A stretch of DNA of 37,828 bases from Deltaproteobacteria bacterium (lineage in GTDB: Bacteria > Desulfobacterota > GWC2-55-46 > JAJCZF01), in assembly GCA_029262475.1 (NCBI GenBank), contig JAJCZG010000024.1, positions 1 to 37,828 of the forward strand, read 5' to 3'. The position numbers and the translations under genes were made by a program. Positions 3,570-18,467 of the stretch are shown here, in pieces (position 1 is the stretch's first letter; every line of letters starts with the position of its first letter). A model generated the notes under the pieces. That model searched no databases. It saw nothing but the letters and a program-made list of their open reading frames with translations, and was not told the origin of the DNA.

Positions 3570-4243
3570 AACATTTATGCATGCAACATAAGATGTTAAT
3601 TCCGTACTTAGAAGAAGCGCCTGTGTAAGATAAAATTGTGGTAAAGGGAGATTTTATCTCCTATTTACCCACTTATGATACCGATGCTCACTGACTTAAG
3701 GGAGTCTAAAAGTGGACTTCGGGTACGCAAATTTCTTGATTTCTTCTATGATCTGATGAATTATGATGTCATGGAGTAGTTATTGGTAAACTTGGCCTAT
3801 AATTTATCAATAATCCCACGTATATGAGAGGAGTCGCTAAAGGACTTCATAAGTAGGCGCTGATATAAGAAAAATCTCTCCAACCTTCAAACGGTGGGTA
3901 GGGGTTGAACTCTTTGAAGACAACCGCCTGTTATATGGCCCCGAGAGAAATCTGAACTTGACATAACCGATTCAGAAAGGGGTATGGAGCTACTCGACTC
4001 TTACAGCCATGATGTGATAATCAACTGAGTGGCCTATAATCCTCTAACCACGGCAGACGTTATGCCATTAACTGCGATAAGATCAAGAGAGAGTAAGATT
4101 GGAGACAGAGGCTTGGTTTTAAAATAGTGCTGAAGCTTATCACCAGTTCGTATATGGAGAACATAGACAGGTTGGAAAACATAAGGAGTGGAGACTACAT
4201 GAAATGGGTAGTGACAATTAGCTCTTCAGAGGAAGTGGTTTGA
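3570..4243. other. Long spacer with degraded coding sequence
   Basis: About 670 bases without an intact gene. A 31-codon open frame at 3684-3779 (beginning MLTDLRESKSGLRVRK) is unrecognised. An RmlD-like remnant occupies about 3889-4070 (listed separately). A further open tail at 4127-4243 (containing YMENIDRLENIRSGDYMKW) ends exactly at the base before the Wzm start codon and may be the 3' end of a broken gene. The stretch looks like the scar of deleted glycan genes. Confidence 0.5.
3889..4070 (+). pseudogene. Remnant of dTDP-4-dehydrorhamnose reductase (RmlD-like)
   Basis: One frame reads VGVELFEDNRLLYGPERNLNLT up to a stop near 3964. A second frame from 3966 continues TDSERGMELLDSYSHDVIIN, a TGA, then VAYNPLTTAD. 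Put together this matches the N-terminal pattern of RmlD (G-x-x-G-x-E-L, D-L-T-D, then P-D-V-I-I-N-A-A-A-Y-T-x-V-D). A frameshift lies between the halves, a stop replaces one residue of the INAAAY motif, and the protein breaks off soon after. The glycine-rich NAD(P) loop and catalytic YxxxK are missing. A living copy would make dTDP-rhamnose. The match is by eye and the segment is short. Confidence 0.5.
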
Positions 4244-5011
4244 ATGGATAGAAGAAACAGACAAAAACTTGATCTTTTAAAGCTTCTTATTAAAAAAGCA
4301 ATTACCCTTAAATATAAAAGGACATATCTAGGGATATTCTGGTCGTTGTTGAACCCCTTAATGACAGCGCTGATTTATTTCTTTGCGTTCAAGGTTATTA
4401 TGCGTTTTCAGATGGAACACTATTCTCTTTATCTGCTTAGCGCCCTTTTCCCCTGGGTCTGGTTTTCATCCTCCATAACACTGTGTACAAATGTGTTGAC
4501 TAGTAATGTTTCGCTAATTCGGAAAGTAATATTTCCGAAACATTATTTGATTATCTCTAGTATCATTGGGCAGCTTATCACCCTTGTTTGTGCTATCCCG
4601 ATATTGCTCGGACTTGCATATTACTATGGGAAAACGCCAGGCATGAGTTGGATTATCGGCATACCTCCACTGATTATTCTGCAATTTTTTATAATCTATG
4701 GGGTGGCCCTTGCTATATCGATTGTGAACGTCTATTTCAGAGACATGCAGCACATAGTCAGTGTTGGGCTTAATCTGCTTTTTTGGATGACGCCAATAAT
4801 TTACCCGCTTGAAATGATTCCGGAAAAATATAAGACCTACCTTCTACTAAACCCTGTTGCTTACTTGATACTTAGCTGGCGTGATGTTTTTCTGCACAAT
4901 ACGCTTAACTGGAAGGGTCTTTTTGTCTCTCTTGTCATTGCCGTCATAGTTCTATCCTTGGGAATTGTAGTTTATAGAAGGCTCGAAAAAGGCCTTGATG
5001 AGGTGCTTTAG
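4244..5011 (+). CDS. wzm: ABC-2 type polysaccharide export permease (Wzm-like)
   Basis: This 255-residue integral membrane protein has six predicted helices and the ABC-2 permease pattern. The N-terminal KRTYLGIFWSLLNPLMTALIY is the standard signature of O-antigen and teichoic-acid exporter permeases. Later segments include FPWVWFSSSI, NVYFRDMQHIV, FWMTPIIYPLEMIP and LNPVAYLILSWRDVF, all typical. It forms the membrane channel that flips a completed polyprenyl-linked glycan across the inner membrane, powered by the ATPase next door. The ATG at 4244 follows directly after a TGA in the degraded spacer and has AGAGGA about 10 bases upstream. Its TAG (5009-5011) abuts the ATG of the ATPase gene, so the two are co-translated. 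Confidence 0.93.
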   Translation: MDRRNRQKLDLLKLLIKKAITLKYKRTYLGIFWSLLNPLMTALIYFFAFKVIMRFQMEHYSLYLLSALFPWVWFSSSITLCTNVLTSNVSLIRKVIFPKHYLIISSIIGQLITLVCAIPILLGLAYYYGKTPGMSWIIGIPPLIILQFFIIYGVALAISIVNVYFRDMQHIVSVGLNLLFWMTPIIYPLEMIPEKYKTYLLLNPVAYLILSWRDVFLHNTLNWKGLFVSLVIAVIVLSLGIVVYRRLEKGLDEVL

Positions 5012-5737
5012 ATGATAGTTGCCGAAAATATTTGGAAGCTCTTTCCTGTACAAAGAGACAGACTTGGTTTTAAGGAGTTTCTGGTAAACTTCCCTCGTTA
5101 TTTCAATGGTAATAAAAGGAACTTTGTAGCCCTTAAAGGGGTCAGCTTTGAAGTAAAAAAGGGCCAATGCCTTGGTGTGATCGGTAGGAACGGGGCTGGA
5201 AAAAGCACACTTCTATCTCTTCTGCTGGGTGTCATGCAGCCCTCGCGTGGGTCAATAGAGGTGAGGGGAAGAAAGGTGCCCCTTCTAGCTCTGGGTGCAG
5301 GATTTCATCCCGACCTCACCGGGAGGGAAAACCTTTTAATGAACGGTATTCTACTTGGGAATACAGAAAAGGAAATGCTTGAAAAAATGGATGCCGTAAT
5401 CGATTTCTCCGAACTGGCTGACTTCATAGACAGACCATTAAGGACTTACTCAAGCGGCATGTGTATGAGACTTGCCTTTTCTGTCGCCATAAATGCCAAC
5501 CCAGGAGTGCTATTGATAGACGAGATATTGGGTGTCGGTGACGCATCCTTTCGGAAAAAATCCTCTGGAACACTTCGTAAGCTCATTAAGGCCGGAGTTG
5601 CTACTGTATATGTTTCACACAGCATGCAGACCGTAAAAGACATATGCGATAGGGTGATATGGCTTGAACACGGCGAGATAAGAGCAGAGGGAGAGCCGAA
5701 TAGTGTCATTGAGGATTATATAAGTACTCAGTGTTGA
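5012..5737 (+). CDS. wzt: ABC transporter ATPase of polysaccharide export (Wzt-like, short form)
   Basis: A 241-residue nucleotide-binding subunit paired with the Wzm-like permease. Walker A is GRNGAGKST (58-66), the ABC signature is YSSGM (146-150), Walker B is VLLIDEIL (166-173) followed by the D-loop GVGD, and the switch His is in YVSHSM. The N-terminal AENIWKLFP...FVALKGVSFEV pattern and the GAGFHPDLTGRENLLMNG segment are specific to the Wzt/TagH group. It lacks the C-terminal carbohydrate-binding domain found in long Wzt proteins that recognise a capped O-antigen. It is therefore expected to work without a terminal modification signal, which is interesting given the many modifying enzymes nearby. 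It starts on the base after the wzm stop. Confidence 0.93.
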   Translation: MIVAENIWKLFPVQRDRLGFKEFLVNFPRYFNGNKRNFVALKGVSFEVKKGQCLGVIGRNGAGKSTLLSLLLGVMQPSRGSIEVRGRKVPLLALGAGFHPDLTGRENLLMNGILLGNTEKEMLEKMDAVIDFSELADFIDRPLRTYSSGMCMRLAFSVAINANPGVLLIDEILGVGDASFRKKSSGTLRKLIKAGVATVYVSHSMQTVKDICDRVIWLEHGEIRAEGEPNSVIEDYISTQC

Positions 5738-5945: not shown

Positions 5946-6662
5946 ATGGATAGTGTGAAACTCAAGCCAGGTGATAATCATTACACAGCATATGTTGGAC
6001 CTCCTACCCAATATGACTTTATGGGGGCAACGCAGTTTCGTTTACTCTGTACTTTAGGTATTCGTGCAAATCATTATTTGCTGGATTTTGGCTGTGGCTC
6101 GCTTCGTTCTGGCAGACTATTCATTCCTTATCTTGATGAGGGGCGATATTTTGGTATAGAACCAAATAAATGGTTGATTGAAGATGCTATCAAGCATGAA
6201 GTGGGAAAAGATATCATCCATATAAAAAAACCACAGTTCGATTATAACAGTGATTTTGCAACTGATGTCTTTTCGCAAAATTTTGATTTTATTATTGCTC
6301 AGTCTATTTTTTCTCATGCAGGTGCAGATCTTATTAGGATTGCGTTTGAAAATTTCAAGAAGTCGCTAACCCACGACGGTCTAGTTGCTGTCACTTTTTT
6401 GGAAGGAGAAGACGACTTCAAAGATAGTGGGTGGTTTTATCCAGGTTGTGTTAGTTACTTAAGTTCTACGATAAAAAAATTTGCAGAAGAAGCTGGGTTT
6501 TTCGTGATGCGGATTCCATGGTATCATCCAAGGCAGACTTGGTATCTATTGGCAAATAATAAGAGTCGGCTTCCGAATGACGCAATGTTGCGTTATATGT
6601 CAGGAGCAGTCTTGTTTGATCCTGAGTTTATTCAGAGTTGGGAAAATAATCAGGATATATGA
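5946..6662 (+). CDS. Class I SAM-dependent methyltransferase
   Basis: The protein has 238 residues. Motif I is LLDFGCGSLRSGRLFIPYL (about 38-56), followed by an acidic end of strand 2 in YFGIEPN. The aromatic/hydrophobic strand FDFIIAQSIFSH corresponds to motifs of the Methyltransf_11/25 fold. It is a soluble cytoplasmic enzyme that most likely methylates a sugar or glycan in this pathway, although the acceptor cannot be read from sequence. The gene is clearly AT-rich in third codon positions compared with the genes further right. Its ATG at 5946 has no good Shine-Dalgarno sequence. Both facts, and the sulfotransferase stub just upstream, suggest recent arrival by recombination. Confidence 0.8.
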   Translation: MDSVKLKPGDNHYTAYVGPPTQYDFMGATQFRLLCTLGIRANHYLLDFGCGSLRSGRLFIPYLDEGRYFGIEPNKWLIEDAIKHEVGKDIIHIKKPQFDYNSDFATDVFSQNFDFIIAQSIFSHAGADLIRIAFENFKKSLTHDGLVAVTFLEGEDDFKDSGWFYPGCVSYLSSTIKKFAEEAGFFVMRIPWYHPRQTWYLLANNKSRLPNDAMLRYMSGAVLFDPEFIQSWENNQDI

Positions 6663-6849: not shown

Positions 6850-9800
6850 ATGAAATCAAGAGCAATCTGCGTTCTCGGAATGCACCGATCAGGAACCTCG
6901 ACTGTTGCGCGAATGATAAATCTTCTAGGGGTCTACCTTGGTGAGGAAATTGATATTGCTTCTCCCACTTCTAAGAATATTAAGGAGTTTCAAAAAAGGC
7001 ATCCTGACAACCCTACCGGTTTCTGGGAGCATCGAGCTATCATAGATTTTCACGATAGACTATTGGACAGGTTGGAATCGAGATGGGATGCTACTGTGCC
7101 TCTTTCCGAAAGTTGGCACCTTTCAGAGGAAGTCATGCCCTTCAGGGCTGAATTGGTTGACCTGGTTAGCAAGCACTTCTCCGGCCATAAGCTGTGGGCC
7201 TGGAAAGACCCTAGGAGCAACATCCTGCTCAAACTCTGGAAAGATGTGCTTGGCGAATTCGGGATAGAGCTCTCATGTGTTTTTGCCGTAAGAAACCCCC
7301 TTGATGTTGCTAGGTCGTTGAACAAAAGAGACGGTTTTCCTCTGGACAAGGGGTATGGCATCTGGATCAACTATCTAATGACGGCGCTGCAAGAGACAGT
7401 GGACATGCCAACGGCTTTTGTCCTATATGACAATGTGCTTGTTGATTGGGAGAAAGAGCTGAGAAAATGTTCAAGAAAATTGCAGATCGGATGGCCTAAG
7501 AGTGACCGGGTACTCAGGGCTAAAATGCATTCTTTTGTCCGTAATGATCTTTGTCACAGCGCCTCCGGGATAAATGACCTTTACGATAATAATGCGCCTT
7601 ATCCTGTAATCGAGCTTTATAAGGAAATATTAAATTCCTTGGACAACCTGTCAATGACTAAGGATGCCGTTATCAAACTTTCCAAGGAGTTTTTGACATA
7701 TTCGAGATTCTTTCATTTTGACATAAAGGCATCCTTCAATTTGCAAAAGACAGTGCCGAATCTTAAAGAGGCCGTAAAGGAAAAGGAAGACCATCTTGTT
7801 GCCCTCAATGCCTCGGTTATGGAAAAGGAAGCCTGTATTGAGGGGCTTGAGTCTTCAATTGACGAGAGGGATTCACAGATAGAAAGTCTTAAAAAGTCCG
7901 CAAGGGAAATGGATGGTCATCTTGTAGCCCTCAATGCCTCGGTTATGGAGAAGGAAGTCTGCATTGAGGGGCTTGAGTCTTCAATTGACGAGAGGGATTC
8001 ACAGATAGAAAGTCTTAAAAAGTCCGCAAGGGAAATGGAAGACCATCTTGTTGCCCTCAATGCCTCGATTATGGAAAAGGAAGCCTGCATTGAGGGGCTT
8101 GAGTCTTCAATTGGCGAGAGGGATTCACAGATAGAAAGTCTTAAAGAGGCCGTAAGGAAAAAGGATGACTATCTTGTTGCCCTCGATGCCTCGGTTATGG
8201 AGAAGAAGGCCTACATTGAGGGGCTTGAGTCTTCAATTGGCGAGAGGGATTCACAGATAGGGAGTCTTAATGAGACCGTAAGGGAAAAGGATATTCTTTT
8301 AGCTCATATATATAATTCACATGGATGGAAAGCTCTACTTCTATATTACAAATCTAGAGACTTAGTTTTGCCCGTGGGAAGCAGATGGAGAAAGACGGTC
8401 AAGTTTTTTTTCTTATTACCGAACATGATAACGGGATTGAATATCAAGAAATCCATATGGTATTTTAAGAAGCATGGTTTGAAAAATTTTATTGGAAAAG
8501 CTAGAGAAAAAGTCAAAAAGAAAATCACAGGAGAAGCAGAGATGCGAGGGCCAGCAATGATGGCGAGATCCCCTTTGACCGTCGATCTTCATGCCACTCA
8601 AGCGGAAGTATCATCATTGATCGAAGCAATTACCAATGTCAAAAGGGAGCAGTATGATATTTTAGTTTTTCCTGTTATCGACTGGTATTTCCGTATTCAG
8701 CGACCGCAGCACCTAGCCAGGGAGATGGGCAAATTGGGATATCGTGTCATCTATCTGAGCACGACCTTTTATGAATCCGATAATCCGACGTTCAGGATTA
8801 TGGAATCCCCGGAGGAAAACGTCTTTATCGTCCAGCTTGGTTTTCCGGGACCGCATCCGAGGATATATATCGACAGGCCAGAAGAACAACATCTGCAATA
8901 TTTAAGCGGTGCACTTCTGGACCTCTACAGTCGCTGTGGAATCAAGGCGGCGATTGGCATCGTCAACCTCCCCTTCTGGAGGGGGGTTGTCGAATCGTTA
9001 CCCGCCACCCTGCTCGTCTACGACTGTATGGACTATCACGCTGGTTTTTCCACCAATTCAGATGCCATGTTGGGGGAAGAGGAGTTATTGCTGAAGTCGG
9101 CTGACCTGGTGATTACCGCTTCAGCTAAGCTGTCGAAGATGGTTGCTAATGAAGCGGACAACGTGTTGATTCGTAATGCAGGGGAAATTGACTTTTTTGC
9201 AAAACAGCCGGAATCGCTCAAGATCGGAACGCACAGGCCTGTGGTCGGTTACTACGGGGCCATTGCAGAATGGTTTGACCTGGATTTGGTCATCAAGGCT
9301 GCGCGCCATTACCCGGAGTGGAATTTTGTGCTCGTAGGAGCAGTTACGGATCAAGATACCGAAGAAGCGGCATCTTTGCCCAATGTAAGATTCACAGGGG
9401 AAGTTCCATACAAAGATCTGCCAGGATACTTATACGCCTTCGATGTGTGCATGATCCCCTTCAAGATATGTGAGCTTACACTTTGTACAAACCCGGTAAA
9501 GGTATATGAGTACTGTGCGGCGGGCAAGCCTGTTGTATCCTCGTCCATGCCCGAACTGATGGAAATTGATGATATTGTCTATGTCGCCGACGGGTGTATC
9601 GAATTTATAGAAAAGTTGGCTCTTGCAATGAAGGAAGTTAGGGAAGAGAAGAATGGGCCGCTGGCAACGCGGCGTGCTCAATGGGCGAGACAAAACGACT
9701 GGCATGAGCGCTCAAGCCTGCTCCATGAGACCATTAAATCGGCTTTCCCAAAAGTAAGTGTAATCGTGTTAACCTATAACAACCTTGGCTTCACACAGGC

Positions 9801-10554
9801 TTGTTTGTCGAGCTTGGAGAGACACACGCATTACCTTAACTGGGAACTTATAATGGTGGACAACGCATCGACAGATGGCACGTCGGCATATCTTAAGGAT
9901 TACGCTGCTCGCCATAACCATGTCAAAATCGTTCTTAACGAGAAGAACCTTGGCTTTTCAGCAGGGAACAACGTCGGCTTGCGTGAGGCAGAGGGGGAGT
10001 ACCTCGTCATACTTAACAATGACACTTATGTTACCGATGGTTGGATGCTGGGCCTTATTCGCCACCTGAGAAAACGCCCTGATATAGGTCTTATCGGACC
10101 GGTCACAAACAACATAGGCAATGAAGCCCGGATAGAAATCCATTACGCTAACATGGAGGAGATGTCCGAGCAGGCCCAGCGCTATACGTCGGCACACCCG
10201 AGAGAATCATTTTATAATAATACATTGGGATTCTTCTGCGTTGCAATGAGCCATAAGGTCTATGAGAAAGTCGGCCCTATGGACGAGGCTTTTGGACTAG
10301 GCTTTTTCGAGGACGATGATTATTGCAGACGAGTGCACGAGGCCGGGTTCAAGGTGGCGGTGTCGGAAGATGTATTCGTTCACCACCATCTCTCCGGGTC
10401 CTTTGACCTGCTGAATGATGGTGAGAGGCAGAGGCTTTTTGAGAAAAACAAAAAGATATACGAGGAAAAATGGGGTACGTGGGTGCCGCATAAATATAGA
10501 GAAGAAGAGTGGTCTCAACGTAATGCTTTATCTCCAAAGACGCCACTGCAATAA
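6850..10554 (+). CDS. Multidomain fusion: sulfotransferase-like + coiled-coil repeats + GT4-like + GT2 glycosyltransferase
   Basis: A 1234-residue protein with four parts. (1) Residues 1-300 are sulfotransferase-like, with the PAPS loop GMHRSGTST (10-18) and the 3'-phosphate segment RNPLDVARSL (148-157). (2) Residues about 300-481 are a charged coiled coil made of four 42-residue repeats. (3) Residues about 598-960 resemble a GT4-type transferase (FPVIDWYFRIQRPQHLARE, VGYYGAIAEWFDLDL, NPVKVYEYCAAGKPVV). (4) Residues 967 to about 1210 are a GT2 domain with VSVIVLTYNN, DNAST (from D1004), NND (1056-1058) and an acidic FFEDDDY (from about 1152). There is no signal peptide, so it probably works at the cytoplasmic face. 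Inference: it couples sugar transfer with sulfation of the same glycan, the coiled coil acting as a ruler or oligomeriser. The ATG at 6850 follows GAGAG. Confidence 0.85.
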   Translation: MKSRAICVLGMHRSGTSTVARMINLLGVYLGEEIDIASPTSKNIKEFQKRHPDNPTGFWEHRAIIDFHDRLLDRLESRWDATVPLSESWHLSEEVMPFRAELVDLVSKHFSGHKLWAWKDPRSNILLKLWKDVLGEFGIELSCVFAVRNPLDVARSLNKRDGFPLDKGYGIWINYLMTALQETVDMPTAFVLYDNVLVDWEKELRKCSRKLQIGWPKSDRVLRAKMHSFVRNDLCHSASGINDLYDNNAPYPVIELYKEILNSLDNLSMTKDAVIKLSKEFLTYSRFFHFDIKASFNLQKTVPNLKEAVKEKEDHLVALNASVMEKEACIEGLESSIDERDSQIESLKKSAREMDGHLVALNASVMEKEVCIEGLESSIDERDSQIESLKKSAREMEDHLVALNASIMEKEACIEGLESSIGERDSQIESLKEAVRKKDDYLVALDASVMEKKAYIEGLESSIGERDSQIGSLNETVREKDILLAHIYNSHGWKALLLYYKSRDLVLPVGSRWRKTVKFFFLLPNMITGLNIKKSIWYFKKHGLKNFIGKAREKVKKKITGEAEMRGPAMMARSPLTVDLHATQAEVSSLIEAITNVKREQYDILVFPVIDWYFRIQRPQHLAREMGKLGYRVIYLSTTFYESDNPTFRIMESPEENVFIVQLGFPGPHPRIYIDRPEEQHLQYLSGALLDLYSRCGIKAAIGIVNLPFWRGVVESLPATLLVYDCMDYHAGFSTNSDAMLGEEELLLKSADLVITASAKLSKMVANEADNVLIRNAGEIDFFAKQPESLKIGTHRPVVGYYGAIAEWFDLDLVIKAARHYPEWNFVLVGAVTDQDTEEAASLPNVRFTGEVPYKDLPGYLYAFDVCMIPFKICELTLCTNPVKVYEYCAAGKPVVSSSMPELMEIDDIVYVADGCIEFIEKLALAMKEVREEKNGPLATRRAQWARQNDWHERSSLLHETIKSAFPKVSVIVLTYNNLGFTQACLSSLERHTHYLNWELIMVDNASTDGTSAYLKDYAARHNHVKIVLNEKNLGFSAGNNVGLREAEGEYLVILNNDTYVTDGWMLGLIRHLRKRPDIGLIGPVTNNIGNEARIEIHYANMEEMSEQAQRYTSAHPRESFYNNTLGFFCVAMSHKVYEKVGPMDEAFGLGFFEDDDYCRRVHEAGFKVAVSEDVFVHHHLSGSFDLLNDGERQRLFEKNKKIYEEKWGTWVPHKYREEEWSQRNALSPKTPLQ
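7792..8295 (+). repeat. Four in-frame 126-bp tandem repeats encoding a coiled coil
   Basis: Units begin at 7792, 7918, 8044 and 8170, each exactly 126 bp (42 codons). The coded unit is HLVALNASVMEKEACIEGLE, then SSIDERDSQIESLKKSAREM plus two residues. Units 1-3 are nearly identical at the DNA level and unit 4 is more diverged. This points to recent duplication from one end. Because the period is a multiple of three, gain or loss of units would change coiled-coil length without breaking the protein. Confidence 0.95.
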
Positions 10555-10807: not shown

Positions 10808-12589
10808 ATGAAAAAACGTATTGTTATTGTCCATAACCATTTGTTCAAAAATGCAGGTTCGACGATCGATTGGGCTTTGCAAAAGAATTTTGGAAAATGT
10901 TTTATAGATCATCGTGATAACAATAATATGCGTAAGGGAGCGGATTATCTTGGGTTATATCTTATGGAAAATCCTAAGATTAAAGCACTATCAACGCATC
11001 ACTTGACACTTCCTTTGCCAAATTTAGATGATACTATTCTTCCTCAAATTATGATGTTCCGTGATCCGCTTGAACGTGTTACATCTGTATACAACTTTGA
11101 AAAAAAGCAAATAGATGCCGTAACACCAGGAGCAATTCATGCACGAAAATTTAATCTGAAGGAATATGTCGAGTGGCGCATGAAGCCTGATGTAGGAGAG
11201 ACTATCAGAAACTTTTATGCAAATAGATGCCTACCACCTCGTAAACAAAGGAAAGAGCCGTTCTCAGAAAATGAAATATTAGATGCCAAAAAATTTATTT
11301 CCTCCATTGAAATGTTGGGACTAGTAGAGCAGTTTGACGAAAGCATGGTTGTATTTGAAGAGTTTTTAAAAGAGTGTAATCCCTATATTGACTTATCTTA
11401 CGTGCTCCAGAATGTCGGCCAGCATATAGACGAATCCAGAGATGAAAGAATCAAAAAACTCAGAGACGCAGTTGGAGAAGAGACTTTTAAGGTCTTAAAG
11501 GAAAAGAATAAGGAAGATATTGATTTGTATAATTATGTTAAAAAGGAATTCAAGTTAAGAGTTTCTAAAATTTCTAATTTTAATGAAAAACTACAGTCAT
11601 TCCGAAAACGATGTAAAGAACAGCATCCGAAGAGTAGTGGTGTGCTTGATAAAATAAATATCTTAACTGAGAATAAATTTATTCAGAAGGTCAAAGGAAA
11701 ACTCTGGACTAGTGTTGAGGAGCGTAGAAGGATGCAACAACAGGGGGTTAACATCATACCTGCAAATTTCTATTCGAACATTCCTTCAATAGATGATGTT
11801 GAGAATTCTTTCGAGTACGCAAACACTAAGTCCGATGGCGTCTACAACGCATCAGGGATTTTTAATCATGAGAAAATGACAGAATTCATTGAGGAATTCT
11901 CAATTTATTCTTCCGAGTTTTCACCTCCTATTGAAGCTGGTGGCGATTCTCGGAAAAATCAATTTTTCTGGAAAAACCCAGCATTCTCATACTCAGATGC
12001 AATGGCTTATTATTGTATGATCAGACATTTTAAGCCAGATAGGATAATGGAGATTGGCTCCGGTTATTCAACATTGGTAGCAGATGAGGCGCTAAGTCGA
12101 AATGGAAAAGGAAAATTGATGTTAATAGAACCCTTTCCGAAAGAGTTTTTGCACGAAATTAAATCGGTAGAAAATATAATACAGAAATTTGTTCAAGAGA
12201 TAGATCTTGCCGAGATGATTTCTCTAGTTGAGTCGTGTGATATGTGGTTCATTGATTCCACGCATACGGTTAAAATTGGAAGTGACTGTCTGTATATTTA
12301 CCTTAAAATTATGCCAGAAATCAAGAAAGACATCGTAGTTCATGTACATGACATTTTCCTTCCCTTCCCTCCACCTAAGACATGGCCATTGGATCATCAC
12401 ATCTATTGGACAGAACAATATCTCTTGTACGCTTATATGCTCGATAACCCAAAGATTGAGATGCTTTTTGGAAGCGCTTACGCCCATAATTGTTTGCCGG
12501 AAGCGACAGAGAAACTTATGAAGGGAAAGTACCCAAGCGGTGGTGGCTCTGTTTGGTTTAAATTGATGGGAGAAAAATGTGGCCATTAA
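10808..12589 (+). CDS. Fusion of sulfotransferase-like domain and class I methyltransferase
   Basis: A 593-residue protein. The N-terminus (about 1-240) looks like a Sulfotransfer_2-type domain: VHNHLFKNAGSTIDWAL (8-24) corresponds to the PAPS-binding loop, and FRDPLERVTSVYNF (84-97) to the 3'-phosphate-binding R-x-P segment. A polar linker (about 250-330) contains ILTENKFIQKVKGKL. The C-terminal part is a SAM methyltransferase with IMEIGSGYST (motif I, 413-422), LMLIEPFP, MWFIDSTHTV and VVHVHDIFLPFP, the Methyltransf_24 pattern. The likely role is sulfation plus methylation of the glycan, as an inference from domains and neighbours. The ATG at 10808 follows AGGAGA (10791-10796). The gene is AT-rich, unlike the housekeeping part of the window. 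Confidence 0.8.
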   Translation: MKKRIVIVHNHLFKNAGSTIDWALQKNFGKCFIDHRDNNNMRKGADYLGLYLMENPKIKALSTHHLTLPLPNLDDTILPQIMMFRDPLERVTSVYNFEKKQIDAVTPGAIHARKFNLKEYVEWRMKPDVGETIRNFYANRCLPPRKQRKEPFSENEILDAKKFISSIEMLGLVEQFDESMVVFEEFLKECNPYIDLSYVLQNVGQHIDESRDERIKKLRDAVGEETFKVLKEKNKEDIDLYNYVKKEFKLRVSKISNFNEKLQSFRKRCKEQHPKSSGVLDKINILTENKFIQKVKGKLWTSVEERRRMQQQGVNIIPANFYSNIPSIDDVENSFEYANTKSDGVYNASGIFNHEKMTEFIEEFSIYSSEFSPPIEAGGDSRKNQFFWKNPAFSYSDAMAYYCMIRHFKPDRIMEIGSGYSTLVADEALSRNGKGKLMLIEPFPKEFLHEIKSVENIIQKFVQEIDLAEMISLVESCDMWFIDSTHTVKIGSDCLYIYLKIMPEIKKDIVVHVHDIFLPFPPPKTWPLDHHIYWTEQYLLYAYMLDNPKIEMLFGSAYAHNCLPEATEKLMKGKYPSGGGSVWFKLMGEKCGH

Positions 12590-12687: not shown

Positions 12688-14829
12688 ATGGCGAACTTTT
12701 TTTTAGCCTCCTTACCACTGCTGGTCCCCAACGTACGCTACTACCCTGCGTCTTATGTATATTCGATCATTAAGGGGGCAGCATGGCAATGCAAGTATGT
12801 GGACTTCAATCAATTGATATTCGAGTTGACTCCAGCAGAGCTGAAAAAGGACTGGAAGAACCATGCCTTCAACAGGATGATGGAAATCGTCAACGACGAT
12901 GAAAAGTTTGAAGAGCAATTCCAGTTTGCTGACCAATTTATGCGAGAGAAACTTTCGCAAGAGTTCAATAAGGTTAACTACGATTTGATTGGCGTAAGTC
13001 TTTATAATAGCTGTCGCCGTTTCTCCAGTATGTTTTTGCGAACTCTCCGGGAGTTAGACATACAGGCCCCGGTAATCTTTGGCGGTCCTGACTGCTTTCC
13101 TGCATGGCACAATATAAATTACTTAACAGAGCATAAGTATACCCCAGATATTGTGTTCTCAGGAGAGGGCGAGATAGCATTTCCAGAATTTTTAAAGGAA
13201 TATGAGCGAACACGAGATATAAAGACAAGGATTGGGGGGTTTGCGTACAAAGATGATTCGGGCAACGTTGTCAACAATCCTCTAGGAGCCCCTCCGAAAC
13301 TGGAGGAACTGAAAATTATTGCCGACTACGGCGCTTATACCGACCCTGCTATATATCCAAACCAGACCATCAACACCTTTACGAGCCGAGGCTGCGTTAT
13401 CAAATGTAAATTCTGTACTGAGTGGTTGATCACTGCTCCGTATCGCAGACGTAACCAGAATGTAGTCGTTGAAGAACTCATTAACACTAGAAAGTATCTT
13501 CCAGACAGCCACAATCTATGGTTACTAGACTCGAACCTAAATCTTTCTGAAAGGCATGTTGTTAACTTTTCTAAAACTCTCCTAAAAGCAAATATGGATA
13601 TCCAATGGCGTTCCATGGCATCTTTCAGGGCGCAAATGTCTGATGATGCTTTATCGCTCATGAAAAGATCCGGATGCGTTGAATTAATGTTGGGACTTGA
13701 GTCGGCGAGCCAACCGGTTCTAGATTATATGAATAAGCGCTTCGATATCAATCTGGCAGTGGATACGCTTGCTAAGTATCAGAAACATGGCATTAAAATA
13801 AGAATGCCCATTATGAACGGATTCCCTGGTGAATTCACGAACGACTTTCTCACTACCAGTGCTTTCATATTGACTTATGGAAGTAATGACGCTCTGTCCT
13901 TTTCCTACTCTAACAAGTGCATGGTATTCGAGAAGGCAGAGCTTGATCAACACCCAGAAGACTTCTACATTGATATTTCGAGCAGGACGAAATCACCTGA
14001 CGCTTTTCAGCTTTTGGACGGACTTAACACTTCGCCTGTACGTACAATTCGAATGCTGTTAAATATGTTCTGTATAGGGACGTCGGTTAAACGGCGAGGA
14101 AACTACAATTTTGATGAGTTCAAGACATTAAAAACTCTGAATTTCAATAACTTGAGTGTTGCAATGGAGCTGGCTCAGATAATCTATCAATTAGGAAGGT
14201 TGACAAACAGTTCGCAAGAAGCGTTGTTTCTGCTTAATCGAGAAGATGTGCAGACTGAGGATAAGAACATTGTTGCTGTGAATGCAGGGAGAGTCAGTTT
14301 TCTTCAAAATGCCATACCAGGGCTGTGTCTCAAGAATTGGCTAATTTATGAGAAGAATAGCGACGAGCTAAAGGAGAGTACCATGCATTTCATACAGCAG
14401 AAGTACCGCCTCTTGGCTGATAGCTTGGAATTAACCGAGAATCTTGATTTTAAGGATTTCAGAAATAGACTGTTTCAGATCGACGATTACAAACTAGAAA
14501 GGGGCGATATTAGCGAGCTTCACTTAGCTAAGGTTCACTCAACTCTCGGAGATGGGGGGGGATTCCTGATCATCAATGGCTATACAGCAAATTTTGATAA
14601 AAAAATCATGGTCAGCAAGGTTCTGATAAAAACAAAAGATAACATCATAGAATTACATTGCGGTGCTCATAGCCCAGAAGGTGCCAAGACATATCTTTTT
14701 CCAGGTAGTGAGTATTCGGGTTTTTGGGGGAAGGTAAAAAAATCTTACCTCGATAACAATAAGTTAGAGATCATGGTAGTCTACAATGATCAAACAGTAA
14801 AGGTCTATGAGTTAGATGTAGCATTCTAA
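12688..14829 (+). CDS. B12-binding-type radical SAM protein
   Basis: The 713-residue protein has an N-terminal cobalamin-binding-like Rossmann region (about 90-170: YDLIGVSLYNSCRRFSSMF, VIFGGPDCFP, DIVFSGEGEIAFPEFL). The radical SAM core follows, with the Cys triad C236-x3-C240-x2-C243 in TSRGCVIKCKFCTEW and the supporting segment VELMLGLESASQPVLDYMNK. The DxHxxG motif of base-off B12 binding is not present, as in many members. The last about 200 residues are unassigned. Relatives perform methylations and other radical chemistry on unactivated carbons in antibiotics, lipids and glycans. Its place between modifying enzymes and wecB suggests sugar or lipid modification, but the substrate is unknown. 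The ATG is preceded by AAAGGAAAAG. Confidence 0.82.
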   Translation: MANFFLASLPLLVPNVRYYPASYVYSIIKGAAWQCKYVDFNQLIFELTPAELKKDWKNHAFNRMMEIVNDDEKFEEQFQFADQFMREKLSQEFNKVNYDLIGVSLYNSCRRFSSMFLRTLRELDIQAPVIFGGPDCFPAWHNINYLTEHKYTPDIVFSGEGEIAFPEFLKEYERTRDIKTRIGGFAYKDDSGNVVNNPLGAPPKLEELKIIADYGAYTDPAIYPNQTINTFTSRGCVIKCKFCTEWLITAPYRRRNQNVVVEELINTRKYLPDSHNLWLLDSNLNLSERHVVNFSKTLLKANMDIQWRSMASFRAQMSDDALSLMKRSGCVELMLGLESASQPVLDYMNKRFDINLAVDTLAKYQKHGIKIRMPIMNGFPGEFTNDFLTTSAFILTYGSNDALSFSYSNKCMVFEKAELDQHPEDFYIDISSRTKSPDAFQLLDGLNTSPVRTIRMLLNMFCIGTSVKRRGNYNFDEFKTLKTLNFNNLSVAMELAQIIYQLGRLTNSSQEALFLLNREDVQTEDKNIVAVNAGRVSFLQNAIPGLCLKNWLIYEKNSDELKESTMHFIQQKYRLLADSLELTENLDFKDFRNRLFQIDDYKLERGDISELHLAKVHSTLGDGGGFLIINGYTANFDKKIMVSKVLIKTKDNIIELHCGAHSPEGAKTYLFPGSEYSGFWGKVKKSYLDNNKLEIMVVYNDQTVKVYELDVAF

Positions 14830-14870: not shown

Positions 14871-15050
14871 CAGGCCCATTTTATTGCACAGTCTGGCCAC
14901 GTTCAAATAGAGGGCGAAAGGTTGAGGGGTCGAAAATTAGATAAAACTCCTAATTTAACTGACACTGGGTTTATTCAAAAGGTCAAAGAAAAACTACAGA
15001 CTAGGTTCAAGGGGCATCGAAGTAATATGTTATATCCAGAAGGGGTTTAA
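14871..15050 (+). pseudogene. 3' remnant of a gene sharing the linker of the sulfotransferase-methyltransferase protein
   Basis: The open frame from 14871 to a TAA at 15048-15050 ends with KLDKTPNLTDTGFIQKVKEK and then LQTRFKGHR. The fusion protein coded at 10808-12589 contains VLDKINILTENKFIQKVKGK and then LWTSVEERRR in its linker. The two share the frame LDK-x4-LT-x3-FIQKVK-x-KL, and the DNA around 11680-11735 and 14965-15020 is clearly alike. There is no start codon and no recognisable upstream domain, so this is the tail of a lost paralogue. Its TAA overlaps the wecB ATG by one base (TAATG), a junction that still may couple translation if the fragment is translated. Confidence 0.6.
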
Positions 15051-16165
15051 TGAAAATACTATTTATATTCGGCACTCGACCCGAGGCCATAAAGATGGCA
15101 CCTCTGATTAAGACGTTCCAGAAACACCAGGAACTGTTTGACATAAAGGTATGCGTGACTGCACAGCACAGGGAAATGCTCGACCAGGTGCTGGAGTTTT
15201 TCAATATTGTACCCGACTATGATTTTAACCTTATGACACCTGACCAGTCGCTCTTTGATGTAACGTCTGATGGATTGAAGGGACTTGATGTAGTTTTGTC
15301 CGAATTCAAGCCCGATCTGCTTTTTGTCCAGGGCGACACTACAACAGCTTTTATAGGGGCCCTTGCAGGATATTATAAAAAAACAAAAGTAGCCCATTTG
15401 GAGGCTGGATTGAGAAGCGGTGATCGTTGGTCGCCATTTCCGGAAGAAATTAATAGAACATTGGCAGGACATCTTGCGGATTTTCATTTCGCACCTACCA
15501 ATAATGCGGCTATGAATCTGGCCAATGAGGGAATAAAGGAGAACGTATGGGTAGTTGGCAATACGGTGATAGATGCCTTGTTTCTCGGACTCAGCATTGT
15601 AAAAGATCGGTGCGAGAAAACCTTTTTCGATTTTTTCGATTATATAGATTTCTCAAGAAAGATCATACTTGTCACAGGACATAGAAGAGAGAGTTTTGGA
15701 AAGCCTTTCGAAGACATCTGCCACGCCCTGAAGCAAATTGCCAGCCAGTTTGACGTGCAGATAGTTTACCCCGTTCACCTAAATCCTAATATCAGAAAGC
15801 CGGTGAACACCATTCTTCAAGGCCACAAGAATATTCATCTTATAGAACCGCTGGATTATCCCTTTCTTATATGGCTGATGGAAAAGTCTTATCTTGTCCT
15901 GACCGACTCTGGGGGCATACAAGAAGAAGCTCCCTCTCTTGGCAAACCGGTTCTTGTTATGCGGGACGTTACCGAACGCATAGAAGGAATAAAGGCTGGG
16001 ACTACAAGACTTGTTGGGACTGGTAAAGATAAGATCGTAGAAGAGGTAACAACATTATTGAGAGATCGACAGGCATATGATTTGATGGCAAAATTTGTAA
16101 ATCCTTATGGAGACGGTAATTCCTCCAGAAGAATATTAGACATAATAAAGAGAAGTCCGCTTTGA
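15050..16165 (+). CDS. wecB: UDP-N-acetylglucosamine 2-epimerase (non-hydrolysing)
   Basis: It interconverts UDP-GlcNAc and UDP-ManNAc in the cytoplasm, feeding ManNAc-type sugars into surface glycans. All 371 residues align with the usual family length. Clear motifs are FGTRPEAIKMAPL (7-19), VTAQHREMLDQ, FVQGDTTTAF, HLEAGLRSGDRWSPFPEEINR, VTGHRRESFG, YPVHLNPNIRKPV and LTDSGGIQEEAPSLGKPVLV followed by MRDVTERIEG. Asp and Glu residues of the QGD, EAG and PEE motifs, needed for anti-elimination of UDP, are all present. It starts at an ATG overlapping the preceding fragment's stop, and its own stop overlaps the next gene's TTG start by 4 bases (TTGA). It is thus part of a tight wecB-GT4 unit. 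Confidence 0.95.
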   Translation: MKILFIFGTRPEAIKMAPLIKTFQKHQELFDIKVCVTAQHREMLDQVLEFFNIVPDYDFNLMTPDQSLFDVTSDGLKGLDVVLSEFKPDLLFVQGDTTTAFIGALAGYYKKTKVAHLEAGLRSGDRWSPFPEEINRTLAGHLADFHFAPTNNAAMNLANEGIKENVWVVGNTVIDALFLGLSIVKDRCEKTFFDFFDYIDFSRKIILVTGHRRESFGKPFEDICHALKQIASQFDVQIVYPVHLNPNIRKPVNTILQGHKNIHLIEPLDYPFLIWLMEKSYLVLTDSGGIQEEAPSLGKPVLVMRDVTERIEGIKAGTTRLVGTGKDKIVEEVTTLLRDRQAYDLMAKFVNPYGDGNSSRRILDIIKRSPL

Positions 16166-17265
16166 AGATAATTTACTTTGCACCTATTGACTGGGACTTT
16201 ATCTCTCAAAGACCTCAACACATCGCCAAAAGGCTTTCTAAGGATTTATCTGAATTTATCTATATTCAGCCCTTCGGCTTAAGAAACCTGAAGCTATCTG
16301 ACTTTCACAGGATAATAAAAAGACTTGCTGCCCTTTTTAGGCAGAAGTCTACAAAAAAAATTCAGATCAAAAATTGTTTTTTCATTCCAATAATTGACCA
16401 ACGAATTCAAAAAATAAATACAATTCTACTGAAAAGACAAATTAGAAAGCTTGCAGACAATAAAACCATTATTTGGGTGGCATTACCATCTGTAGTTATG
16501 CCAGACCTGTTGAGTGACTTGTCTTACAAGGCATTAGTATATGAAATGATGGATGATTTTCCTGAGATACATTCCTCAAAAGCTGACATGATAAGAAAAA
16601 CGGAGACATGGTTAGTAAATAAGGCCGATATGATTATAACAACATCACATGAATTGCAAAAGAAGGCAATCGATATTAATAGTGAAAAGGATGTCGAGCT
16701 CATAGGTAATGGTGTCGATTATGATTTTTTTTGCAATGCGGTATCACAAAAACCAGCCGAGTTGGAAGGAATGAATCAAACGGTTGGATACATCGGGACC
16801 ATAGAGGATTGGATAGATTTTGATACTATTGCTTATATTGCCAATCAAAGGGAAGATCTGGACTTTGTTTTTGTCGGCCCTATACGAGTGCAGGATGTGC
16901 CCGTCAATAAAAACATTCATTTTCTTGGGCTAAGAAATTATGAAGAGATACCATTTTACTGTAGATCTTTCGATGTCTGCATAATTCCTTTTAAAATCTC
17001 TGCTTTTGCTGATAGTATTAACCCTGTAAAGCTATATGAGTATTTTTCTTTAGGCAAGGCGGTTGTTGCCTATGAGATGAAGGAACTCAAACCTTTTGGG
17101 GACTTACTATATTTGGCCAGTGATAAACATGAATTCCTTCAGCAATTGGATATGGCCTTGCATGAAAACGACGCCTCTATCAAACAGAAGCGAAAGGAGA
17201 TTGCAAAGCAACATGACTGGTCAATAAAGACGAATGAAATAATACATGCTTTCTCAAAATTTTAA
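16162..17265 (+). CDS. GT4-like glycosyltransferase, paralogue of the central domain of the large fusion
   Basis: The protein has 367 residues with a GT-B fold. It shows the N-terminal FAPIDWDFISQRPQHIAKRL and middle VGYIGTIEDWIDFDT segments. At the C-terminus are FLGLRNYEEIPFYCRSFDVC, IIPFKIS and NPVKLYEYFSLGKAVVAYEM, whose E in KLYEY is the family's nucleotide-sugar contact. The same blocks in the same order occur in residues 600-960 of the protein coded at 6850-10554, so the two are paralogous. It most likely transfers a sugar to the lipid-linked glycan on the cytoplasmic side. The TTG start at 16162 overlaps the wecB stop by 4 bases and has AGAGAAG just upstream. Codon usage is AT-rich. 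Confidence 0.85.
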   Translation: MKIIYFAPIDWDFISQRPQHIAKRLSKDLSEFIYIQPFGLRNLKLSDFHRIIKRLAALFRQKSTKKIQIKNCFFIPIIDQRIQKINTILLKRQIRKLADNKTIIWVALPSVVMPDLLSDLSYKALVYEMMDDFPEIHSSKADMIRKTETWLVNKADMIITTSHELQKKAIDINSEKDVELIGNGVDYDFFCNAVSQKPAELEGMNQTVGYIGTIEDWIDFDTIAYIANQREDLDFVFVGPIRVQDVPVNKNIHFLGLRNYEEIPFYCRSFDVCIIPFKISAFADSINPVKLYEYFSLGKAVVAYEMKELKPFGDLLYLASDKHEFLQQLDMALHENDASIKQKRKEIAKQHDWSIKTNEIIHAFSKF

Positions 17266-17286: not shown

Positions 17287-18219
17287 ATGATTAGCGTAAT
17301 AATCCCAGTCTACAATGGTGCAGAACAAATTGTATACCTTTTTTCAATTTTGAAGAAATCCAAGGCCGTTAATGAGATTGTTGTCATAGATTCCGATTCC
17401 ACGGACGATTCCATTAAAATTGCGGAGTCTTACGGTGCAGTTACGGTCAAGACGGAGAAGCGCTCATTTGACCACGGAAAGAGCAGGACAATAGGTGGAA
17501 AGAAGGCCAGTGGGGATATCGTCGTTTATATGACGCAGGACGCCTTGCCTGCGAATGAAGACTCCATAGAGAAGTTGATAAAGCCTTTATTTGAGAATAA
17601 AAGAACTGGAGCCGCCTACGGAAGACAACTGCCTCACCACGGTGCCACTCCATTTGCCGCTCATCTCCGCACATTCAACTACCCACCCAAGTCGCAGATC
17701 AAATCATTAAATGACAAGAAAATACTGGGGATAAAAACGCCGTTTATCTCCAACTCCTTTGCAGCATACAAAAAGACCGCTCTTGAGAAGGTGGACTGGT
17801 TCAATGAGGGGATTATAATGGCTGAGGATACCTATGCAGGCGCAAAATTGCTTATGAACGGCTATAAGATCGCCTACGCAGCCGATGCGCTTGTCTACCA
17901 TTCCCATAATTATACTGCTTTTGAGGAATTTGAAAGGTATTTCGATATCGGGGTCTTTCACCGGATGGAACACTGGATTCTTGATGAATTCGGAAGGACC
18001 GAGGGAGAGGGGTTAAGATATCTAAAGTCCGAACTGCAATACCTTTCCAGAAGTCGCCGAACCCACCTTATGCCGGCATCCATTTTGCGCATCGGCCTTA
18101 AGTATGCTGGTTATAAGTTGGGAAATAACTATGAGCTTTTCCCTAAATGGTTAATTAAGAAATTGAGTTTGCATGCCGATTTCTGGAACAAACAGGTAGA
18201 AGACGAAAAAGAGGTTTGA
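17287..18219 (+). CDS. GT2 glycosyltransferase, rhamnosyltransferase-like
   Basis: A 310-residue GT-A enzyme. It shows ISVIIPVYNGAEQI at the start, IDSDSTDDS, then KRSFDHGKSRTIGGKKASGDIVVYMTQDALP, where the QDA replaces the classic DxD, and an acidic MAEDTYAGAKLLMNGYKIAY helix with VYHSHNYT. The HGxxRN-like HGKSRT block and the QDA are typical of the rhamnosyltransferase group that adds L-rhamnose to O-antigens. The donor sugar is an inference; an RmlD remnant shows that dTDP-rhamnose genes were once here. The ATG at 17287 is 22 bases after the previous gene and lacks a strong Shine-Dalgarno. It is the last gene of the polysaccharide cluster. Confidence 0.85.
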   Translation: MISVIIPVYNGAEQIVYLFSILKKSKAVNEIVVIDSDSTDDSIKIAESYGAVTVKTEKRSFDHGKSRTIGGKKASGDIVVYMTQDALPANEDSIEKLIKPLFENKRTGAAYGRQLPHHGATPFAAHLRTFNYPPKSQIKSLNDKKILGIKTPFISNSFAAYKKTALEKVDWFNEGIIMAEDTYAGAKLLMNGYKIAYAADALVYHSHNYTAFEEFERYFDIGVFHRMEHWILDEFGRTEGEGLRYLKSELQYLSRSRRTHLMPASILRIGLKYAGYKLGNNYELFPKWLIKKLSLHADFWNKQVEDEKEV

Positions 18220-18423: not shown

Positions 18424-18456
18424 AGAAAAAGGGTTACAGGCCGAAGCCTGTAACCC
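18424..18456 (-). terminator. Rho-independent terminator of the tRNA-Arg gene
   Basis: Read on the minus strand, GGGTTACAGGC, a TTCG loop and GCCTGTAACCC form a perfect 11-bp stem (18431-18456), followed by TTTTT (18426-18430). It sits just downstream of the tRNA 3' end. An A/T-rich flank on the other side could let it work for the incoming polysaccharide transcript too. Confidence 0.9.
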
Positions 18457-18467
18457 TTTATTTTTAT

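Follow-up and report, generated by a model that had tools for sequence, protein, structure and literature searches.

Can a sulfotransferase (ST) serve as the terminator that stops the growth of an exported bacterial polysaccharide? This question is raised by a 1234-residue protein, encoded as a single uninterrupted frame (6850-10554, plus strand) in a contig from a Deltaproteobacteria bacterium. The contig, 37,828 nucleotides long and analysed in full, is referred to below as the window; it is contig C24 of a draft genome of 2.4 Mb in 145 contigs. On this fusion protein an N-terminal ST is followed by a coiled coil (CC) and by two glycosyltransferase (GT) modules, a GT4 and a GT2, and its gene sits in a polysaccharide locus with a Wzm/Wzt-type ABC transporter. 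How long O-antigens, S-layer glycans and other surface polysaccharides become, and often whether they are exported, depends on chain termination; the ruler-type terminators in the literature that we consulted add methyl, methyl-phosphate or Kdo. We lean towards the view that the fusion is a polymerase with a built-in sulfate terminator for an ABC-exported surface polysaccharide, in which the coiled coil acts as the ruler. The ST fold, the coiled coil, the two GTs, the export locus and the capacity of the genome to specify synthesis of the sulfate donor 3′-phosphoadenosine-5′-phosphosulfate (PAPS) are well supported. By analogy with known terminators, we infer in addition that the acceptor would be the non-reducing end of the chain, that sulfate would stop its growth and that the coiled coil would measure its length.

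Modules of the fusion protein

The ST domain scored 15.2 bits against Sulfotransfer_3 (PF13469), under the cut-off of 27, which is a sensitivity limit and not a defining biochemical feature of sulfotransferases. Its relatives in L115 (38.6 bits) and L082 (32.4 bits) exceed this cut-off (labels of this kind denote the related loci that were compared). A phmmer search with the ST domain against the PDB sequences gave no match, and neither did a search of the genome with PF00685. Since sequence profiles by themselves were insufficient, the domain was modelled from an alignment of 58 relatives, and the resulting AlphaFold model reached a pLDDT of 93.5. All 50 best VIA-align rows were sulfotransferases (Z 14.7 to 9.4), headed by TPST1 (Z 14.7 over 212 residues, rmsd 4.2). 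Neighbours found by Foldseek and VIA-align included tyrosylprotein sulfotransferases, the ST domains of the curacin and olefin synthases, STF9/STF1 and heparan 3-O-sulfotransferases. The model thus assigns the N-terminal domain to the PAPS sulfotransferase fold. The reading of its P-loop as that of a kinase was ruled out by these matches, as kinases appeared only lower in the Foldseek list.

The domain has the motif GMHRSGTS at residues 10-17 and an R148/S156 pair eight residues apart, and in the alignment of 58 sequences G10, H12-S17, R148 and S156 are invariant or nearly so. We take these to be the 5′-phosphosulfate loop and the 3′-phosphate site, respectively, i.e. the PAPS-binding motifs. 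Conceivably, the domain might no longer have ST activity and serve as a scaffold or lectin-like part, which would fit its Pfam score below threshold and an 11-residue insert after residue 40 relative to its nearest relatives. Nevertheless, it retains every motif residue that is invariant across the 58 relatives and its structure model is confident, and we regard a loss of activity as very improbable. A gene for a bifunctional ATP sulfurylase-APS kinase (Sat-APS kinase, 941 bits) is present in the genome, and therefore the host can make PAPS. By eye, an ORF adjoining this gene resembles the CpsB-type tyrosine phosphatases of capsule loci (L122, 516-1451 and 1426-3138, minus strand).

The linker (residues 297-487) contains a single proline and has hydrophobic residues at 80% of its core heptad positions, a value that was reached in none of 5000 shuffles. 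Its DNA is built from a 126-bp repeat, equal to 42 residues or six heptads, in 4.2 copies with 90% matches according to Tandem Repeats Finder (TRF), and 8-17 of the 126 bases differ between copies. With 145 contigs in the genome, the number of repeat units in the linker could be misassembled. Both GT modules scored above their Pfam cut-offs: the GT2 matched PF00535 (residues 970-1139, 2.6e-27, 96 bits) and the GT4 matched PF13692 (residues 796-905, 1.7e-12, 48 bits) as well as the NCBIfam model TuaH (residues 741-953, 6e-26).

The draft state of the genome might raise the suspicion that the ORF is an assembly join of two genes. However, the exact order ST-CC-GT4-GT2 recurs in two independent assemblies from other lineages, L048 and L115, and the fusion is therefore not such a join; we attach a virtually negligible chance to this explanation. 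These results bear out the original prediction, made from the window alone, that a PAPS-type ST, a repeat-built coiled coil, a GT4 and a GT2 are joined on one 1234-residue protein. Both findings that it named as able to overturn it, a kinase fold of the P-loop domain and an assembly join, failed to materialise, and the architecture search that it had proposed returned L048 and L115.

The putative terminator position and its variants

The position of the ST was compared with that of modules in related proteins. GT4-GT2 relatives from the same phylum in L182 and L181, 40-43% identical over ~616 aa, carry another module ahead of the coiled coil, namely a methyltransferase in L182 (PF08241, 4e-20) and a GT4 in L181. 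L183, from the same phylum, encodes the GT4 and the GT2 in separate genes and has two STs close by. Characterised terminators lie at the distal end of coiled coils, and the polymerase GTs are C-terminal in O12 WbbB and O7 ORF6 (PMC11231755). By module order and heptad test, the fusion shares this feature of ruler terminators, with a modifying enzyme at one end of the coiled coil and polymerase GTs at the other. The ST occupies the slot in which the chain terminators WbdD, WbbB and Klebsiella O7 ORF6 sit.

ORF6 of Klebsiella pneumoniae O7, from an ABC-transporter locus, likewise joins an N-terminal end-modifying enzyme, a coiled coil and two polymerase GTs (both GT2) in one polypeptide, but its terminator is a methyltransferase-kinase instead of an ST (PMC11231755). 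Klebsiella O12 WbbB, too, is a single chain that both polymerises and terminates and has a coiled-coil ruler, whereas its cap is a beta-Kdo added by a GT and its GT modules founded the families GT99, GT102 and GT103. WbdD of E. coli O9a/O8 resembles the ST proteins as an end-modifying enzyme on a length-setting coiled coil; unlike the fusion, it uses phosphate/methyl chemistry and its polymerase WbdA is a separate protein. WsaE of Geobacillus stearothermophilus, from a Wzm/Wzt locus, has an N-terminal capping methyltransferase ahead of two GT domains, but the cap is a methyl group and methylation in vitro is independent of chain length (PMC2943079). The best-supported view is that the fusion works like the WbdD, WbbB and O7 ORF6 machines; it departs from them in one tested feature and in its capping chemistry, and is not a proven member of the ruler terminators.

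In such a machine, the GT4 and GT2 would extend a lipid-linked chain near the membrane while the coiled coil would hold the ST at a distance from them. Once the chain has grown far enough for its end to meet the distal ST, that end would receive sulfate from PAPS. This terminal sulfate would block further growth, and the capped chain would be exported via Wzm/Wzt.

Relatives of the ST were collected in a scan of 84,980 species, from which 80 loci in many phyla were kept; together with a phylum search, ~97 ST proteins were compared. No ST relative was found on viral contigs. About one-third of these proteins are detectably fused to a GT2 or GT4, mostly after a coiled coil, and such ST-CC-GT fusions recur in many phyla. 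The exact ST-CC-GT4-GT2 order was seen in the window, L048 and L115, with ST-GT4-GT2 in L082. Well-supported branches of the ST tree force four changes to the ST-CC-GT4-GT2 architecture. In the GT4-GT2 tree the window and L115 form a pair (48% identity, support 100/99), whereas in the ST tree the ST halves of these two proteins fall into different supported clades. Because the two trees disagree, the ST and GT halves have separate histories, which suggests swappable modules. The ST of L048 (8402-13123) and that of L099 (3487-6936) come after a glycosyltransferase-like domain and a methyltransferase within one polypeptide, giving up to five modules.

Genes for APS kinase (APSK) occur in 14 of the 80 ST loci in the scan of genome contigs, where base counts predict ~0.3; the 20 control Wzt loci have none. 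Paenibacillaceae account for nine of the 14, so that about five lineages are left after collapsing this family. All APS kinases tested exceed the TIGR00455 cut-off. Gene orders include Wzm-Wzt-APSK-ST-CC-GT2-GT2 in L074, APSK-Wzm-Wzt-ST fusion in L099 and Wzm-Wzt-APSK-MT-ST (MT, methyltransferase) in L186, and in L021 (925-2373, plus strand) an APSK is fused directly to an ST domain in one 483-residue ORF. Such neighbourhoods support the view that ST-family proteins in polysaccharide loci probably use PAPS. An APSK gene is absent from the locus in the window itself. Of the 57 ST loci whose flanks were long enough, 35 have a Wzt gene within ~10 kb, and in 15 this gene is immediately followed by the ST gene. 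Where the ST protein in this position stands alone (e.g. in L050, L052, L070, L109 and L118), the arrangement is that of WbdD.

In 26 ST ORFs the period of the tandem repeats was divisible by 21 bp, versus seven ORFs with other periods. Because coiled coils of every kind are expected to favour units of this size, the counts show that the coiled coil changes length by whole heptads, and do not by themselves show a ruler. Near-identical heptad-multiple DNA repeats (units of 21-84 bp, up to 97% matches) follow the ST domain in L044, L034, L067, L073, L075 and L068, which suggests a recent copy-number change of their coiled coils. After the coiled coil, 28 of the 97 ST proteins carry the motif [ST]xSW[RK]xTxPLR, a candidate element for membrane contact or docking; among 1624 control ORFs, 10 have it. 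Ruler terminators have a membrane-associated amphipathic helix beside their coiled coil; a candidate counterpart in the fusion would be the basic and hydrophobic segment noted by eye (Table 1). Furthermore, a GT4 protein of L008 (29-1432, minus strand) and an ST protein of L010 (1495-2526, plus strand) have the coiled-coil C-terminal tail ISRYVDE[IL]EKTCIGEGG in common, a possible docking tag.

Export, the second sulfotransferase and alternative readings

Several observations weigh against a sulfate-capping ruler polymerase. No Wzt_C domain (PF14524) was detected in the whole genome, and the Wzt of the window has only 241 aa. Across ST loci, Wzt proteins bearing a carbohydrate-binding module (CBM) were not significantly enriched (40/45 versus a phylum background of 127/155, p 0.19, with counts by length read off listings), and such an association was dropped as proof of termination. 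Many ST relatives occur without any GT; at the position of the SWRxTxPLR motif the window protein has only a degenerate version (NSHGWKALLLYYK), in which the motif is not recognisable; the second ST and the methyltransferases of the locus could do the capping instead; and no sulfated glycan is known from the source organism.

Capped Klebsiella systems need the carbohydrate-binding domain of their Wzt for export, whereas transporters of the O1/O2a type are without this domain and do not need a cap (PMC11231755). In contrast to the capped systems, the Wzt of the window lacks a CBM, as do the likewise short proteins of L115 and L110; the Wzt frames of L048 and L104 are short as well, and eight of the 10 sister-locus Wzt proteins scanned do have Wzt_C. 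Since its Wzt has no cap-recognising domain, the window system may cap without gating export, or the sulfate may sit elsewhere. The coupling in the original prediction, sugar addition and sulfation at the same chain end and a coiled coil that sets length, has gained from comparison (the ABC-transporter locus, APSK in sister loci, a methyltransferase or GT in the slot) and has lost by the missing carbohydrate-binding domain.

The main rival holds that the ST sulfates internal residues, one in every repeat unit, during growth, and that the coiled coil is an oligomerisation tether only. The Wzt without an end-recognition domain would fit this, and the second ST suggests more than one sulfated position. 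Moreover, there are known sulfated capsules whose ABC-transporter loci include PAPS genes: in Cobetia marina KMM 1449, an ABC transporter, PAPS genes and sulfotransferases occur together as in the ST loci, but export is of the KpsTMED type and a term search of the paper's text returned no mention of a coiled coil (PMC11766843). Against internal sulfation, the swap for a methyltransferase or GT in the relatives' slot and the distal position match terminators, and a long rod between the ST and the GTs would hinder the sulfation of each new unit. On balance, we consider internal sulfation rather unlikely.

Alternatively, the ST could act on an adaptor or primer region, or cap without a role in length, which transporter stoichiometry would set as in Klebsiella O2a. 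Wzt and Wzm both match galactan-export models best, and the O2a type, which has no CBM, couples export to synthesis (PMC11231755). However, descriptions of galactan systems do not include a long coiled coil that bears a terminator, and linker repeat expansions recur across the ST family; this possibility seems to us more doubtful still.

The second ST-like domain was also modelled and matched heparan sulfate 2-O-sulfotransferase; the domain, with a predicted heparan 2-O/6-O-sulfotransferase-like fold, is unrelated to the first ST. Its homologue in L115 exceeds the Sulfotransfer_2 cut-off (33.5 bits). The domain was found in two of 297 phylum genomes, in both cases adjoining an ST-family protein; homologues have ST neighbours in L034 and L115.

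Extending the sulfate-capping reading to the whole family, sulfation may be a widespread and so far undescribed chain-termination chemistry for ABC-exported bacterial glycans, with STs in the terminator slot of coiled-coil rulers in many phyla, APSK in the operon and ruler length changed by whole-heptad DNA duplication; in our estimate the case for this is evenly balanced. A literature search returned no description of an ST terminator or of this fusion, although most subscription journals lay outside it and a prior description is possible. Aeromonas salmonicida has a separate sulfotransferase gene beside wbbB, yet its O-antigen is seemingly without sulfate according to its authors (PMC4483657), a case that calls for caution and is not support for sulfate capping. 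If true, a sulfate terminator would provide a charged cap and tie surface-glycan length to sulfur metabolism. The signature Wzm, Wzt, APSK and ST-CC could then be used to find sulfate-capped polysaccharides in culturable bacteria, e.g. Paenibacillus, and the 42-residue units would offer a natural ladder for the ruler idea.

Layout of the locus

Table 1. Features of the fusion protein and of its polysaccharide locus in the window.
Feature	Position	Strand	Evidence
Wzm, ABC-2 type polysaccharide export permease	4244..5011	+	PF01061 4e-14; NF050109 galactan export permease 1e-15
Wzt, ABC export ATPase, 241 aa, without C-terminal carbohydrate-binding domain	5012..5737	+	PF00005 3e-22; NF050108 4e-61
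SAM methyltransferase	5946..6662	+	PF08242 2e-8
ST-CC-GT4-GT2 fusion, 1234 aa	6850..10554	+	open reading frame and domain matches
Sulfotransferase domain, residues 1-297	6850..7740	+	AlphaFold pLDDT 93.5; TPST1 Z 14.7; motifs
Coiled-coil linker, residues 297-487	7738..8310	+	heptad test
126-bp tandem DNA repeat, 4.2 copies	7761..8292	+	TRF
Basic and hydrophobic segment, residues 488-601, between CC and GT4; candidate membrane-proximal region	8311..8652	+	read by eye
GT4 (GT-B, TuaH-like) module, residues 602-955	8653..9714	+	Pfam and NCBIfam
GT2 (GT-A) module, residues 967-1208	9748..10473	+	PF00535 2.6e-27
Second ST-like domain (heparan 2-O-sulfotransferase-like) fused to Methyltransf_24	10808..12589	+	PF13578; predicted model
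WecB, UDP-GlcNAc 2-epimerase	15050..16165	+	TIGR00236 481 bits
Separate TuaH-like GT4	16162..17265	+	Pfam/NCBIfam profile matches
Separate GT2	17287..18219	+	PF00535 3e-21
Strong bidirectional terminator-like hairpin closing the locus	18428..18459		14-pair stem

The SAM methyltransferase between Wzt and the fusion gene has a close relative in ST locus L087 (ORF 3848-4663, E 7e-116). In addition, the polysaccharide locus includes a B12-type radical SAM protein (PhpK/BchE-like) at 12688-14829.

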